64,000 nt of DNA. It comes from Paraflavitalea sp. CAU 1676 (lineage in GTDB: Bacteria > Bacteroidota > Bacteroidia > Chitinophagales > Chitinophagaceae). The position numbers and the translations under genes are program-made. The notes under the pieces were generated by a model. The model did not search any database and was not told the origin of the DNA. It worked only from the letters and a program-made list of their open reading frames with translations. Below, piece by piece: positions 6,174 to 11,800 of this stretch (the stretch's first letter is position 1; each line of letters opens with the position of its first letter). The stretch spans positions 124,001 to 188,000 of the forward strand of contig NZ_JARHUJ010000006.1 of the NCBI RefSeq assembly GCF_029223285.1. Direction: 5' to 3'.

Positions 6174-6646
6174 AACTGGTAGTGTTTAAGTCAGCGTAAC
6201 CCCGGCATGTATAGCATACACCAAACACCACCTATTATGATGGTTTGTTTTGTGGAATGCACCGGCTACTAACCCGGGCCGGTAACAGACATGCCAGCAT
6301 TACCAATGAATGATGTGATACAGGTGTAAACTGATCACCGCCAATAAATAATCTTAGGAAGTACCTAACCCCAGCCTGGGTAGCAGAAAAGGCCGGGGAC
6401 TAATTATGAAAGTCCTTACAGGTGGGAAAATAATTCGACTTCTTACCGAAATTAAAGCGCAGGCTCGCACAAAGCGTTTGTGCTTCAAGCAATTGCTGCT
6501 TGCAGAATTGAGCCGATATATGTTTCAATGCGCCTGACATGTTATAAAGATAACAAAAATAGATCAAAGGCGGCAGATAACCGGCACACCCGCTTCCATT
6601 GATGTTAAAATCACTATAAAAGACGATCGTTTCGTATCTTTTGCAC
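6174..6646. other. 473-bp divergent intergenic region with two adjacent small palindromes
   Basis: Lies between the minus-strand membrane protein and the plus-strand serine hydrolase. Two neighbouring perfect inverted repeats are visible: GCACAAA-GCG-TTTGTGC at 6467-6483 and CAAGCA-ATTGC-TGCTTG at 6486-6502. A minus-strand frame through 6400-6768 overlaps the hydrolase start and looks spurious. No tRNA or convincing promoter found. Confidence 0.45.
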
Positions 6647-7897
6647 ATGAAACGCGTTTTTGCAACCTGCACCTTCCTACTGGCAATTATTTTCGCGACC
6701 GGCCAGCAAAAAACCGATCCCTGGCTTGAACAGCTTCTTCGGCAAAAGGCTTCTCCGGCCTTGCTCAATGTTTTAAATAAACCCGATAGCTTTCAATATC
6801 AACTCATCTATACCCGCATCGACCGCGATAAAAATAACCGCCCCCAACTCAAACATTTTTTTCTCCATGTCGATAAGGACCGGTATTTCAATCCTGCCTC
6901 TATGGTAAAAATGCCGACTGCTTTCTGTGCCCTGGAAAAGCTGAATGAAATGAGCAAGGCCGGCGTAAACAAGTATACCACCATGTTTATCGACAGCAGC
7001 TTCGATAAACAAAGCAAAGTTTGGAGCGACACTTCCGCTGTCAGCGGATTTCCATCGGTAGCTCAATACATCCGCAAGATCTTTCTCGTGAGCGACAATG
7101 ATGCCTACAATCGCCTGTACGAATTCGTTGGCCAGCAAACACTCAATGAAAAATTATGGCAAAAGGGCTACAAAGACAGCCGCATCACCAGGCGTTTCGT
7201 ATCGATGAATGAGGAGCAGAACCGGCACACGAACGCCATACGATTTATGGAGGACGGCCGGTTGCTGTATGAGCAGGCCGAAGCCTACAACTCCGTTCCA
7301 TTCAACTTTAGCAAGCAGCTGCTCATAGGGCAGGGGCATCTAAACCGCAACGATAGCCTTATCAAGGCACCGATGGATTTTACTACTCATAACAATATGC
7401 CGCTTGAAGATCTTCAACAGATCGCGCAGTCGGTGTTGTTCCCCGAGACGGTGAAGCCCGAACAACGATTTAACCTAACGCCCGAAGATTACCAATTCCT
7501 GTACAGGTATATGTCCGAACTGCCATACGAAAGCAAACATCCCCGTTACGACACCACGGAGTTTTTTGAAAGCTATACAAAGTTCTTTTTCTTCAAAGCG
7601 GGCAGGGGCAGGATCCCTGCCAATATCAGGGCGTTCAACAAAACCGGCTGGTCGTACGGATTTCTCACCGATGTGAGTTATATCGTCGACTTCAAAAACC
7701 AGGTTGAGTTTATGCTGAGTGGAGTGATCTATACAAATAGCGATGGCATCCTTAATGATAATAAATACGAATATGAAGAGGTAGGCTATCCCTGGTTTAA
7801 AGAAACCGGACAGATATTATACCAGTACGAACTCGACCGTCCGAGAAAATACAAGCCCAACCTGAAGAAGTTTCAATTGAATTACGAGGACCAATAA
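6647..7897 (+). CDS. Class A beta-lactamase-like exported serine hydrolase
   Basis: 416 aa from the ATG at 6647; the frame extends two codons to a TTG at 6641 but the ATG directly precedes a good signal peptide (MKRVFATCTFLLAIIFATGQ). Penicillin-recognising motifs occur in order: Ser85-x-x-Lys88 (NPASMVKMP), Ser-Asp-Asn at 149-151 (FLVSDNDAYNRL) and Lys-Thr-Gly at 332-334 (FNKTGWSYG). This is the transpeptidase/beta-lactamase fold, but the spacing and length exceed a classic class A beta-lactamase (about 290 aa), so it may act on peptidoglycan peptides or other esters/amides rather than drugs. The stop codon abuts the ATG of the GH9 gene, so the two are co-transcribed and probably translationally coupled. 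Confidence 0.88.
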   Translation: MKRVFATCTFLLAIIFATGQQKTDPWLEQLLRQKASPALLNVLNKPDSFQYQLIYTRIDRDKNNRPQLKHFFLHVDKDRYFNPASMVKMPTAFCALEKLNEMSKAGVNKYTTMFIDSSFDKQSKVWSDTSAVSGFPSVAQYIRKIFLVSDNDAYNRLYEFVGQQTLNEKLWQKGYKDSRITRRFVSMNEEQNRHTNAIRFMEDGRLLYEQAEAYNSVPFNFSKQLLIGQGHLNRNDSLIKAPMDFTTHNNMPLEDLQQIAQSVLFPETVKPEQRFNLTPEDYQFLYRYMSELPYESKHPRYDTTEFFESYTKFFFFKAGRGRIPANIRAFNKTGWSYGFLTDVSYIVDFKNQVEFMLSGVIYTNSDGILNDNKYEYEEVGYPWFKETGQILYQYELDRPRKYKPNLKKFQLNYEDQ

Positions 7898-9763
7898 ATG
7901 AGCTACGCCATGATGAAGAAGTTCTATTCAAATAAACGCGTTGCACTGACTGCAATAGCCTGCATTGCCTTGCTCTCCTTTACATCGCCCGCAAGCGATG
8001 CCAGATCATGGATACGAATCAATTTATTGGGTTATTTGCCCGAAAACTCCAAAACAGCTATCTGGTGCGGTAAGCAGGATCAGATCATCACCTCCTTTTA
8101 TGTAATCGAGGTCTCGACGGGCGCTACGGTTATGAAAGGTAATACGGGCCCGGCCTATGGCGCCTACGGCCCCTTTGCCCAAACCTATAGATTGAATTTC
8201 TCACGGCTAAAGCGGCCAGGTCGCTACATCATAAAAGCAGGCGACGCCATTTCTCCTGAGTTTGTCATTGGCGAAGATGTATACAAAGGGGCTGCCGATT
8301 TTTGCTTGCGGTATATGCGCCAGCAACGGAGCGGATTTAACCCCTTCCTGAAAGACTCCTGCCATACCCATGACGGCTATACCATGTATGGCCCCATGCC
8401 CGATAGCACACATATCGATGCATCCGGTGGCTGGCACGATGCCTCTGACTATTTACAATATGTTGCCACCTCAGCCAATGCAACCTGGCACTTGCTTGCC
8501 GCCTGGCGAGACTTCCCGGAGGTATTTGGAGATACTCATCAAGCTAATGGACTGGCCGGCAAAAACAACCGCGCAGATGTGCTGGATGAAGCCAAGTGGG
8601 GCCTCGATTGGCTACTGAAGATGCACCCGCGCGAGGACTGGATGTTCAACCAACTCGGCGACGACCGCGACCATGCGGGCATGCGCATACCCAAAGAAGA
8701 CAGCTTTTACGGAAAGGGCTACGAGCGCCCCGTATATTTTGCTACCGGGCAACCACAAGGCCTGCTGAAGTATAAAAACAGGGCAACCGGCGTAGCATCA
8801 ACGGCAGGCAAATTTGCCAGCGCTTTTGCCCTTGGCTATCAAACCATAACAAACGAAGACCAGGCCTACAAAGATCTCCTGTATCAAAGAGCCCTATCGG
8901 CCCACAAACTAGGCGTACAAAAACCCGGTGTTTGTCAAACCGCTCCGGGACGCTCCCCTTATTTCTATGAAGAGGATAACTGGACCGACGATATGGAACT
9001 TGCCACAGCCAGCCTCCATCAAATGCAACAAGCTAAAACCAGCCAGCCCGACGAGGCATTGCTGAAGACGGCCCTGCAATATGCCCGCGTAGAAAAATTA
9101 ACTCCCTGGCTGGGGGGCGATACTGCCCGGCATTATCAATGGTACCCGTTTATCAACCTGGGTCATTTCGAATTGGCCAAACAATCGGAAGGCAGGCAGA
9201 AAAAAGAGTTGATCGGCTATTATAAACAGGGTATTGAAAAGGTATGGCAGAAGGCGGGCAAAAACGCCTTCCTGCGTGGCATTCCCTTTATCTGGTGCAG
9301 TAACAACCTCACCACCTCCTTTGCCATTCAATGCTATTGGTACAGGAACCTCACCGGCGACGATCAATACCTCCAGCTTGAACAGGCCAATTTCGATTGG
9401 TTATTAGGCTGCAACCCCTGGGGCACCAGCATGGTTTACGGATTGCCGGCAACCGGCGACACACCATCTGACCCACATTCGGCATTTACACACCTTAGGC
9501 AATACCCCATCGACGGCGGCCTCGTGGACGGCCCCGTATATGGAAACATTTACAAGAACCTGATCGGCATTACGCTCAACGAACCCGACGAATATGCGGC
9601 ATTCCAAAGCGACCTGGTGGTTTACCATGACGACTACGGTGACTATAGCACCAATGAGCCCACTATGGATGGCACTGCTTCCCTGGTCTATTTATTCGCT
9701 GCCAAGGAACAACACAGGCCTACCCAGCCCCCGCAAACAGGTAAACCTGAAAAAAAAAAGTAA
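7898..9763 (+). CDS. GH9 family glycoside hydrolase (endoglucanase-like), exported
   Basis: 621 aa in the zero frame. Signal sequence to about residue 35, then an N-terminal Ig-like domain of the CelD type (WIRINLLGYLPENSKTAIWC...), then the GH9 (alpha/alpha)6 barrel. Catalytic features: GGWHDASDY with Asp181 and Asp184 (base), and STNEPTMDG with Glu587 as acid. Other family blocks: EDNWTDDMELA and WLLGCNPWGTSMVYG. GH9 enzymes cleave beta-1,4-glucan or glucosamine-type polymers. The C-terminus ends in a Lys run encoded by ten A residues followed at once by TAA; a CE4 deacetylase domain continues in the -1 frame. The ATG follows the preceding hydrolase stop with no gap. Confidence 0.92.
   Translation: MSYAMMKKFYSNKRVALTAIACIALLSFTSPASDARSWIRINLLGYLPENSKTAIWCGKQDQIITSFYVIEVSTGATVMKGNTGPAYGAYGPFAQTYRLNFSRLKRPGRYIIKAGDAISPEFVIGEDVYKGAADFCLRYMRQQRSGFNPFLKDSCHTHDGYTMYGPMPDSTHIDASGGWHDASDYLQYVATSANATWHLLAAWRDFPEVFGDTHQANGLAGKNNRADVLDEAKWGLDWLLKMHPREDWMFNQLGDDRDHAGMRIPKEDSFYGKGYERPVYFATGQPQGLLKYKNRATGVASTAGKFASAFALGYQTITNEDQAYKDLLYQRALSAHKLGVQKPGVCQTAPGRSPYFYEEDNWTDDMELATASLHQMQQAKTSQPDEALLKTALQYARVEKLTPWLGGDTARHYQWYPFINLGHFELAKQSEGRQKKELIGYYKQGIEKVWQKAGKNAFLRGIPFIWCSNNLTTSFAIQCYWYRNLTGDDQYLQLEQANFDWLLGCNPWGTSMVYGLPATGDTPSDPHSAFTHLRQYPIDGGLVDGPVYGNIYKNLIGITLNEPDEYAAFQSDLVVYHDDYGDYSTNEPTMDGTASLVYLFAAKEQHRPTQPPQTGKPEKKK
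9750..9763 (+). promoter_or_regulatory. Candidate -1 frameshift site (A10 tract, slippery heptamer A AAA AAG, then TAA)
   Basis: Ten consecutive A (9750-9759) then G. In the GH9 frame the codons are GAA AAA AAA AAG TAA, so the dnaX-type slippery heptamer A-AAA-AAG (9754-9760) lies in the correct register with a stop immediately after. A -1 slip continues at GTA (9760-9762) into the deacetylase frame, giving one chain of about 879 aa. A run of ten A could also slip during transcription, or be a homopolymer sequencing error. Confidence 0.6.
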
Positions 9764-10536
9764 AGCCGACAAGTTACTCCGCTCCCGATAAAGGGTCCAG
9801 CATCGGTATCAGCGCTGCCCGGATTCCTACAAACAAGCCTATAACCCGGGGAGATACCAATAGTAAACAAATAGCCCTGGTATTTACCGGCGACGAGTTC
9901 GGAGACGGCGGACCCGCCATCATGAGCACCTTGGAGAAAAAAGGCATTAAGGCCTCCTTCTTTCTCACGGGGCGGTTCTATCGCAACGCCGCCCATGAAT
10001 CAACCATTAAACAGTTAAAAGCAAATGGCCACTACCTTGGAGCCCATAGCGATCAACACTTATTATATTGCGATTGGAAACGAAGGGATAGTTTGCTCGT
10101 CAGCTATGAACAATTTGCAGACGACCTCAGACGCAATTATGAAGTCATGCAGGCATTTGGTGTCGGGGCGGCCGACGCCCATTACTTCCTGCCGCCCTAC
10201 GAATGGTACAATGACAGCATCGTATCCTGGACAAAACAACAAGGTTTTCAACTCATTAACTACACACCCGGAACCGTTAGCCATGCCGACTACACCACTC
10301 CGGACCTTAAAAACTACCGCAGCAGCGACCAGATCCTCCAATCTATCTATTCCTATGACCAATCCTCTTCCAACGGTCTCAACGGCTTTATCCTGCTTAT
10401 GCATATAGGTACCGCGCCGCAAAGGATCGACAAACTGTACAATCGCCTGAATGAATTAATTGAACACCTCACGGGTTCGGGATATCAACTGGTTCGCGTA
10501 GATCAACTCCTTGCCAAAAAGCAAACGCCCCCATAA
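9760..10536 (+). CDS. NodB-type (CE4) polysaccharide deacetylase domain, no start codon of its own; likely -1 frame fusion to GH9
   Basis: The open frame begins after a stop at 9748-9750 and has no ATG, GTG or TTG until ATG 9922. The conserved domain starts earlier: KQIALVFTGDEFGDGG (NodB motif 1, normally TFDDG) is encoded at about 9865-9912. Starting at 9922 would delete motif 1 and leave 204 aa. Later motifs are present: GAHSDQHLLY (motif 2, metal-binding His pair), YFLPPYEWYN (motif 3) and LLMHIG (motif 5). CE4 enzymes remove acetyl groups from chitin, peptidoglycan or xylan. A linker (KPTSYSAPDKGSSIG...) joins it to the GH9 part. Best reading: second domain of a GH9-CE4 protein made by frameshifting, or a fused gene split by a homopolymer error. 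Confidence 0.8.
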   Translation, partial: VKPTSYSAPDKGSSIGISAARIPTNKPITRGDTNSKQIALVFTGDEFGDGGPAIMSTLEKKGIKASFFLTGRFYRNAAHESTIKQLKANGHYLGAHSDQHLLYCDWKRRDSLLVSYEQFADDLRRNYEVMQAFGVGAADAHYFLPPYEWYNDSIVSWTKQQGFQLINYTPGTVSHADYTTPDLKNYRSSDQILQSIYSYDQSSSNGLNGFILLMHIGTAPQRIDKLYNRLNELIEHLTGSGYQLVRVDQLLAKKQTPP

Positions 10537-10702: not shown

Positions 10703-11800
10703 ATGGAAAAGGTATCTAGGCCTCAATACACGAAGAGTGGCCATGAAGCGATCTTTCACCAGTTGCGCCAGGAAGTAGGTACACTTGTAGCTCAACTGGA
10801 GCCAAAACGAAAGCCCGGTATAATGCTCAAGGCATTATTGTTCCCCATTTTGTATATACTTGTCTACACCTCCATCCTGCTCTGGGGGAATAATCCCGTG
10901 GTACTTTACGCCGGTTATATTGGCCTCGGCGTATTGCTGGTCGTTATATTCCTGAACATAATTCACGACGCCGTACACGGTACAGTATTCCGGAGCAAGC
11001 AACTCAACGAGTGGTATGTGTATCTCTTCGATCTGATGGGCGCCAACAGTTACACCTGGCGAATGCGACACGTCAGGTTTCATCATAACTACCCCAACGT
11101 AAGCGGATGGGATACCGACATCGAACAAAGCAAACTGGCCCGCATTTTTCCTTCAGATGAAAGTCTCCGGGTACACAGGTTTCAACATATTTACCTTCCA
11201 TTGCTCTACCCCCTCTATTTGTTAAACTGGCTGCTGATACGGGATTTCCGGGATTTTTTTGACAAGAACAGGACCATCTGTAAACTAACCACCATCCCAC
11301 GAAAGGAATACCTCAAATTATTCTTATTCAAAGGCCTCTTTCTTTTCTACCTGATTGTATTGCCCCTCTTATTATTGAATGTTGGCTGGGGCAGGACCCT
11401 GACCGGCTTTCTGCTAATGATGTTTACCGCCAGCATTTTCTCGCTGATCGTATTACTGAGTCCCCATGCTAATACCAGCTCGGAATTTCCTGAACCCGAC
11501 CACAACAACCAGCTTCCTTACAACTGGATGATGCATATGTTGAAGACTACCAATGATGTGCAATCGGATAATTGGTTCACCCGGTCCTGCATGGGCTGCT
11601 TCAACTTTCACGTGGTGCACCACCTGTTCCCGAACGTAAACCATGTATATTATCCTGAAGTAACCAGCCTGTTGAAGCAATATGCGGCACGCTATGATCT
11701 ACCCTACAGGTCATTTCCTTTGGGCTCATCGCTAAAGAAGCATTTTCTGCTCCTCAAGCGAAATGGAGAAGCGGAAGACATATTTGAAGAGACCATGTAA
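10703..11800 (+). CDS. Membrane fatty acid desaturase-like protein
   Basis: 365 aa. Three His boxes of integral-membrane di-iron desaturases are present: HDAVHG (His88, His92), HVRFHH (His123, His127, His128) and HVVHH (His303, His306, His307), plus a further His at 314. Hydrophobic pairs lie at about 43-62/66-86 and 205-225/233-253, as expected for four TM helices. The enzyme introduces a double bond into an acyl chain using O2 and an electron donor, or belongs to the related hydroxylase/ketolase group. It stands alone between its own promoter and the convergent GNAT gene, with only 19 bp between the two stops. Confidence 0.88.
   Translation: MEKVSRPQYTKSGHEAIFHQLRQEVGTLVAQLEPKRKPGIMLKALLFPILYILVYTSILLWGNNPVVLYAGYIGLGVLLVVIFLNIIHDAVHGTVFRSKQLNEWYVYLFDLMGANSYTWRMRHVRFHHNYPNVSGWDTDIEQSKLARIFPSDESLRVHRFQHIYLPLLYPLYLLNWLLIRDFRDFFDKNRTICKLTTIPRKEYLKLFLFKGLFLFYLIVLPLLLLNVGWGRTLTGFLLMMFTASIFSLIVLLSPHANTSSEFPEPDHNNQLPYNWMMHMLKTTNDVQSDNWFTRSCMGCFNFHVVHHLFPNVNHVYYPEVTSLLKQYAARYDLPYRSFPLGSSLKKHFLLLKRNGEAEDIFEETM

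Follow-up and report, generated by a model that had tools for sequence, protein, structure and literature searches.

In-register A-rich slip sites at GH9-CE4 junctions point to programmed −1 recoding in many Bacteroidia

When a glycosidase gene stops at a homopolymer and a deacetylase domain lies open in the −1 frame just beyond it, is this a broken gene, two genes, or one gene decoded in two ways? The question is raised by a locus of Paraflavitalea sp. CAU 1676, studied here within a window of 64,000 nucleotides (the whole stretch of DNA analysed; contig NZ_JARHUJ010000006.1, positions 124,001 to 188,000, forward strand) from an 8.84 Mb assembly in 23 contigs. The locus encodes a GH9 glycosidase followed by a CE4 (NodB-type) deacetylase domain. 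Judging from homologous loci, it is very likely that in many Bacteroidia the second domain of the GH9-CE4 protein is reached solely via programmed −1 recoding, and the window gene probably makes the fusion by recoding as well, at a site formed by a long adenine run.

The GH9 gene occupies positions 7898 to 9763 of the forward strand, which carries all of the features of the junction, and its zero frame encodes 621 amino acids with a CelD_N Ig-like domain (67 bits in Pfam) and a Glyco_hydro_9 domain (226 bits). Its terminal codons read GAA AAA AAA AAG TAA, with the stop at 9761 to 9763. The A10 run that forms the candidate slip site spans 9750 to 9759 and is followed by G at 9760; a slippery heptamer A_AAA_AAG (9754 to 9760) lies in register directly 5′ of the stop, and a second in-register heptamer, A_AAA_AAA, at 9751 to 9757. 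The CE4 frame (9751 to 10536) is −1 relative to GH9. It begins after a TGA at 9748 to 9750, contains no internal stop from 9751 to 10533, and matches Polysacc_deac_1 at about 9850 to 10254 with 61.8 bits (cut-off 23.1). The first ATG, GTG or TTG of this frame is the ATG at 9922, within the CE4 domain, and the shorter open reading frame that begins there (9922 to 10536) starts after motif 1 and is implausible as a separate gene. A −1 slip would yield a predicted product of 621 + 258 = 879 amino acids, and one A more or two fewer in the run would open the CE4 frame. The initial annotation had described an in-register heptamer with an immediate stop, a CE4 frame with no start between the stop at 9748 and the ATG at 9922, and an 879-residue GH9-linker-CE4 slip product; the sequence and the open reading frame and Pfam analyses agree on each of these points. 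Slippage sites may be recognised by a run of at least nine A or T and a nearby out-of-frame stop, and the window junction combines both, in its A10 and immediate TAA.

Homologous junctions were surveyed in 59 relatives, 394 genomes of the family, 395 genomes of the phylum and 201 genomes of the family to which genome G492 belongs. The last three sets were drawn from larger ones, and the family loci are those among the matches listed; part of the listed genes were fetched (G957, for example, was left out), and 80 named loci were included. Un-fused junctions were fetched by design and fused ones in part, as a comparison, so that the number of fused genes given here is not a frequency. The 239 loci analysed yielded 213 distinct ones after removal of 18 duplicates, six loci without a GH9 match and two lacking the anchor motif. 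Of the 213, 95 are fused and 61 split into the −1 frame; 55 show no CE4 match in the stretch examined, and two are split into the +1 frame. L072, where the lesion lies deeper in CE4, was counted as fused. Two of the −1 splits have their lesion away from the junction and were dropped, leaving 59 junctions: L081 has an apparent deletion within GH9, and in L069 (genome G350) the break falls at an A9 inside the CE4 start, not in the linker. The L069 break lies near a contig end of a 310-contig assembly and is probably an error. The two +1 cases (L121 and L132) contain separate CE4 genes and were rejected as recoded junctions; in L121 (genome G514) the CE4 gene lies just 3′ of GH9 and has a start that by eye resembles a signal peptide, unlike the start-less CE4 frames.

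All 59 linker splits lead into the −1 frame, and all 59 contain an in-register A_AAA_AAG or A_AAA_AAA. Such a heptamer was found in 11/95 fused controls and in 6/54 GH9-only genes (one of the 55 has no stop in its stretch). The zero-frame stop follows the heptamer directly in 42 junctions and after one codon in 14, the remaining three having distances of 2, 8 and 12 codons, and no ATG, GTG or TTG lies ahead of the CE4 match in 52/59 junctions, including the window. Chance or a lone artefact as the explanation for the family is ruled out by the register and direction found in 59/59. The −1 junctions were found across Chitinophagaceae, Sphingobacteriaceae, Hymenobacteraceae and others, the arrangement recurring in Chitinophagales, Sphingobacteriales and Cytophagales; hosts include Pontibacter (7), Pedobacter, Arcticibacter and a Flavisolibacter bin, and one junction (L116) came from another class of the phylum.

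The junctions were divided by run length into a short class of A6 to A8 (n = 41; 37 A6, three A7, one A8) and a long class of A9 to A10 (n = 18; nine of each), to which the window belongs. GGAGG lies upstream of the heptamer in 38/41 short junctions, with a spacing of 10 nt in 24 and of 13 nt in 10, compared with 12/95 fused and 7/54 GH9-only linker regions. A Shine-Dalgarno (SD) element by the criterion of PMC4066793 was present at 40/41 short and 6/18 long sites, against a background of 18% of in-register linker positions (369/2072 fused, 95/537 GH9-only). The calculated SD:anti-SD duplex had a median of −12.2 kcal/mol at short and −6.5 at long sites, the mean fused-linker window being −4.3. 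Where the protein reads KEA, GGAGG was found in 12/13 short, 0/5 long, 3/25 fused and 2/10 GH9-only cases, so that the preference shows up even between synonymous codons. Downstream hairpins were detected in 12/41 short and 0/18 long junctions, and a similar pattern in 3/86 fused and 0/52 GH9-only controls; one example, GCCTCC-loop-GGAGGC, starts a few bases 3′ of the heptamer. In an alignment of ten of the twelve hairpins, from which two with shorter loops were excluded, pairing holds in 98.3% of cells, and both sides have changed in two of the pairs. A 16S rRNA search with the Rfam model found the ACCTCC anti-SD tail in 3/4 genomes; a pattern search for the tail returned nothing in 9 genomes, and the window assembly, listed as 99.97% complete, gave no 16S rRNA match with the Rfam model. 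On these sequence features, the short-A class very probably uses programmed frameshifting.

The fused and recoded states were compared on a tree of 150 of the 154 fused or recoded loci, four with fewer than 150 amino acids of CE4 being left out. The state changed at least 24 times, with 12 changes forced by starred branches, versus a mean of 46.6 in shuffles. Starred branches supply 12 independent pairs of a recoded and a fused locus, in which the heptamer tracks recoding (median sign-test p 0.004). Selection was assessed in seven recoded pairs, six of which had a finite synonymous rate (dS); in these six the ratio of nonsynonymous to synonymous rates (dN/dS) of CE4 was 0.06-0.12, a sequence-level sign of purifying selection on CE4 in the recoded pairs tested.

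Under the proposed mechanism, zero-frame decoding would stop just past the slip site and give GH9 alone, and a backward slip of one base would give GH9-linker-CE4. The fusion would inherit the GH9 N-terminus, which by eye resembles a signal peptide; since the CE4 frame has no start codon, CE4 would presumably be exported as part of the fusion only. The arrangement of frames, heptamers, stops and stimulators and, in the pairs tested, the selection on CE4 are read from sequence; that slipping occurs, at whatever efficiency, and that both products are of use is inferred. At A6 to A8 sites the upstream GGAGG, sometimes with the downstream hairpin, points to dnaX-type −1 frameshifting by the ribosome, and at A9 to A10 sites RNA polymerase, the ribosome or both would slip on the A-run itself. 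All 18 long-A splits are −1 and none is +1, and GGAGG is present in 1/18. Eight of them, all A10, come from one genus (genus code g127, in the G492 family), with the stop equidistant from the run in seven (L112 being the outlier); the same genus contributes six short-class and three fused genes to the set. The uniform −1 direction of the long class may be a legacy of A6-A7 sites that were extended by a single lysine codon. As a member of the long class with neither an SD element nor a special stem, the window would be likelier to slip on its run than to use a dnaX-type signal, and we consider this its likeliest route.

Several known systems resemble parts of this arrangement. The mobile element IS911 reportedly slips at an A-rich heptamer to make a fusion protein, as proposed for GH9-CE4, which is by comparison a chromosomal glycoside hydrolase gene. 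IS911 is also alike in having stimulators up- and downstream of its frameshift site (PMC4066793). In E. coli dnaX, A_AAA_AAG is followed by a stem-loop; an internal SD lies upstream of it (PMC5600365). The short-A GH9-CE4 sites share this heptamer (41/41), GGAGG (38/41) and a hairpin (12/41), and would likewise give two products per gene. However, the shift in E. coli dnaX yields the shorter product, a minority of dnaX genes yielding a longer one (PMC5009743), whereas in GH9-CE4 it would yield the longer; moreover, GH9-CE4 is a polysaccharide enzyme in a host class reported to lack SD pairing. Transcriptional slippage on A-runs has been described for Thermus dnaX and Shigella spa13 (PMC5009743) and for Citrobacter tssM (PMC4256274). 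The long-A class and the window likewise have a coding A-run with nearby stops in other frames, but the GH9-CE4 splits are all −1, which RNA polymerase slippage alone would not require. Expression through −1 recoding is also reported for a glycoside hydrolase of archaea, an alpha-fucosidase (PMC8037382); there, in another domain of life, the shift gives one full enzyme, whereas in GH9-CE4 it would add a second domain. Among the papers listed by literature searches, none has frameshifting of a GH9 or CE4 gene as the subject of its title or the start of its abstract.

A number of observations weigh against recoding, in the window or in the family. The window evidence is the assembled sequence of one genome. 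No SD-like element was found at the published spacing at the window junction, a hairpin scan of the junction found no hairpin, and the weak stem proposed in the initial annotation as a stimulator, about 35-60 bp downstream, was no better than shuffled sequence (z 0.14 and 0.36). The description of the junction as a dnaX-like −1 site consequently holds in part: GH9 and CE4 joined at A_AAA_AAG recur, with an SD element in many relatives and a full dnaX-like signal in some, but the window has neither the SD nor a special stem. In most members of the long-A class no stimulator was found. GTG or TTG occurs before CE4 in 7/59 junctions. On the tree, GGAGG could be compared with recoding in 5 starred pairs (median p 0.125), and the contrast of SD with long A, strong by count, was not significant in 2 independent starred pairs (5 on all branches). 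Hairpin covariation is modest, 39/500 shuffles matching the number of doubly-changed pairs. The SD criterion of PMC4066793 also picks out 4/11 heptamers in fused genes (and 1/6 in GH9-only genes), and when the best SD-like window is taken from each fused linker the median is −8.0 kcal/mol and the extreme −16.0; SD-like sequence alone is therefore not diagnostic. For the closely related loci L229 and L245, CE4 dN/dS was 0.26, from very few changes.

The biology of the host ribosome adds to these points. In Bacteroidia ribosomes the anti-SD is reportedly sequestered by bS21, bS18 and bS6 (PMC9976891), and poor shifting at prfB has been reported for F. johnsoniae (PMC12421855); both speak against a working SD stimulator, and the hidden anti-SD makes a conserved internal SD surprising. 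The presence of such an element at a frameshift site suggests that elongating ribosomes leave the anti-SD accessible for at least part of the time. Ribosomes of Bacteroidia that lack bS21 are described as translating rpsU via a very strong SD (PMC9976891). As a tentative and rather doubtful extension, the internal SD might work because elongating ribosomes, or a bS21-less subpopulation, expose the anti-SD; in that case the ratio of GH9 to GH9-CE4 would report on specialised ribosomes, from whose control lineages would escape by a longer A-run or by fusing the frames.

The relatives of the window, to which the initial annotation had looked for a decision, point both ways. Out-of-frame A-tract junctions are kept in 59 loci elsewhere, consistent with recoding, but in all four other genomes of the genus examined GH9 and CE4 are fused in frame (877-901 amino acids of open frame), as expected of an error or indel in the window and a further point against recoding there. 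Three of these congeners read GGT A9 GTAAAG where the window has A10 GTAAAG, the run with GTAAAGC being common to the window, G375 and the three congeners; the fourth (G001) has no such A-run. The window split, taken alone, could thus be an error or a fresh mutation. Long homopolymers are error-prone, and under the first of these explanations an assembly or sequencing error in the A-run would hide a true window gene fused like those of its congeners. To gauge this, homopolymers were counted on both strands of 464 kb of the window genome (the window and twenty 20-kb stretches), which contain 19 A8, two A9 and one A10 run, the sole A10 being the junction run. By our criterion, the junction was the only open reading frame break at a run of A8 or longer in the 464 kb, and six A8 runs lie within open frames; this is a weak test for A10, as no other run of A9 or longer falls inside a frame there. 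Furthermore, the separate assemblies of relatives, several of them single-contig, contain junctions at A6 or A9-A10 that likewise lead into the −1 frame, so that the split state is real elsewhere, and the eight A10 splits of g127 count against sequencing error for the long-A class. We consider an error in the window unlikely.

A second explanation is phase variation, in which the length of the DNA run changes and CE4 is switched on or off between cells. A split A10 in L229 stands against a fused A11 in the near-identical L245, the many changes of state on the tree would fit, and in 7/9 fused genes whose run is A9 or longer, loss of one A would bring a stop within 0 or 1 codon of its end. L040 (split) and L157 (fused) both carry A9 GCCCTGACC. 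Retention of the run and the following stop while the frame flips is what slippage on the run predicts, and phase variation predicts part of it too. However, the eight long-A splits of g127 are uniformly A10 and nearly uniform in stop distance, the long-A splits are −1 in 18/18 cases, and A6 would be short for slipped-strand variation. Phase variation in place of recoding is thus quite improbable, although the likelihoods given to the alternatives overlap with that given to recoding, as phase variation could coexist with slippage. Among the fused genes, L010-L012, L027, L157, L239 and L245 keep A9 or A11 with a directly adjoining out-of-frame stop, and may produce GH9 alone by slippage.

Equally improbable in our estimate is a recent loss-of-function frameshift in the window lineage, with CE4 now decaying. 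Loss of CE4 would have precedents: 55/213 loci have no CE4 match after GH9 in the stretch examined (a few of these stretches end at contig ends), in L046 (genome G240) GH9 is followed by a C-terminal CE4 piece alone, CE4 apparently having been deleted in place, and in L248 (genome G799) the stretch after GH9 has no CE4 match and by eye resembles a relic of the CE4 C-terminus, as in L046. Against decay, the window CE4 frame is open to its end and is not accelerated (dN to L013 of 0.237, versus 0.230 from fused L010 to L013), and the lesion must have recreated the in-register heptamer and stop of the relatives. Finally, translation of CE4 as a separate gene by termination-reinitiation, for which the GTG or TTG codons in 7/59 junctions and the truly separate CE4 genes of L121 and L132 could be cited, is very hard to credit, because no start exists in 52/59 junctions, the window included, and CE4 would be left without an export signal, whereas the separate gene of L121 starts with what by eye resembles one.

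As to what the second domain does, an AlphaFold2 model of the window CE4 (9811 to 10533) had a predicted local distance difference test score of 93.7 and CE4 structures as its top matches. The metal-binding histidines of the HSxxH motif, H79 and H83, are present in 39/39 aligned sequences. Motif 1 of active CE4 enzymes reads T[FY]DD; the window has TGDE, which departs from it, with Glu at the second position in 36/39 sequences and the first Asp changed to His in 5/39. The three best fold matches are to one CE4 pseudoenzyme, with other polysaccharide deacetylases next. Given the non-canonical motif and the pseudoenzyme matches, deacetylase activity should not be presumed. The initial annotation had named chitin as a possible substrate, which is a guess: among PDB sequences, GH9 is matched best mostly by endoglucanases, and also by a xyloglucanase, and CE4 by deacetylases that act on peptidoglycan, xylan and chitin.

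The window locus is flanked by a Beta-lactamase2-like protein (6641 to 7897) and a fatty acid desaturase (10703 to 11800), neighbours by which it does not resemble a typical polysaccharide utilisation locus. By eye, a desaturase-like frame likewise lies 3′ of GH9-CE4 in G001, G004 and G033. In a further genus (genus code g283), G799, G835 and G865 have GH9 open frames of 1213-1223 amino acids, to which an extra domain may be fused.

If recoding is the correct explanation, GH9-CE4 would be a conserved, non-mobile bacterial gene in which frameshifting sets how much of a polysaccharide enzyme is made in its two-domain form, with natural controls in neighbouring species in the form of fused, SD-driven and long-A versions. 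It would also offer a direct test for anti-SD pairing during elongation in Bacteroidia, and would suggest that genes apparently broken by a frameshift may be whole.

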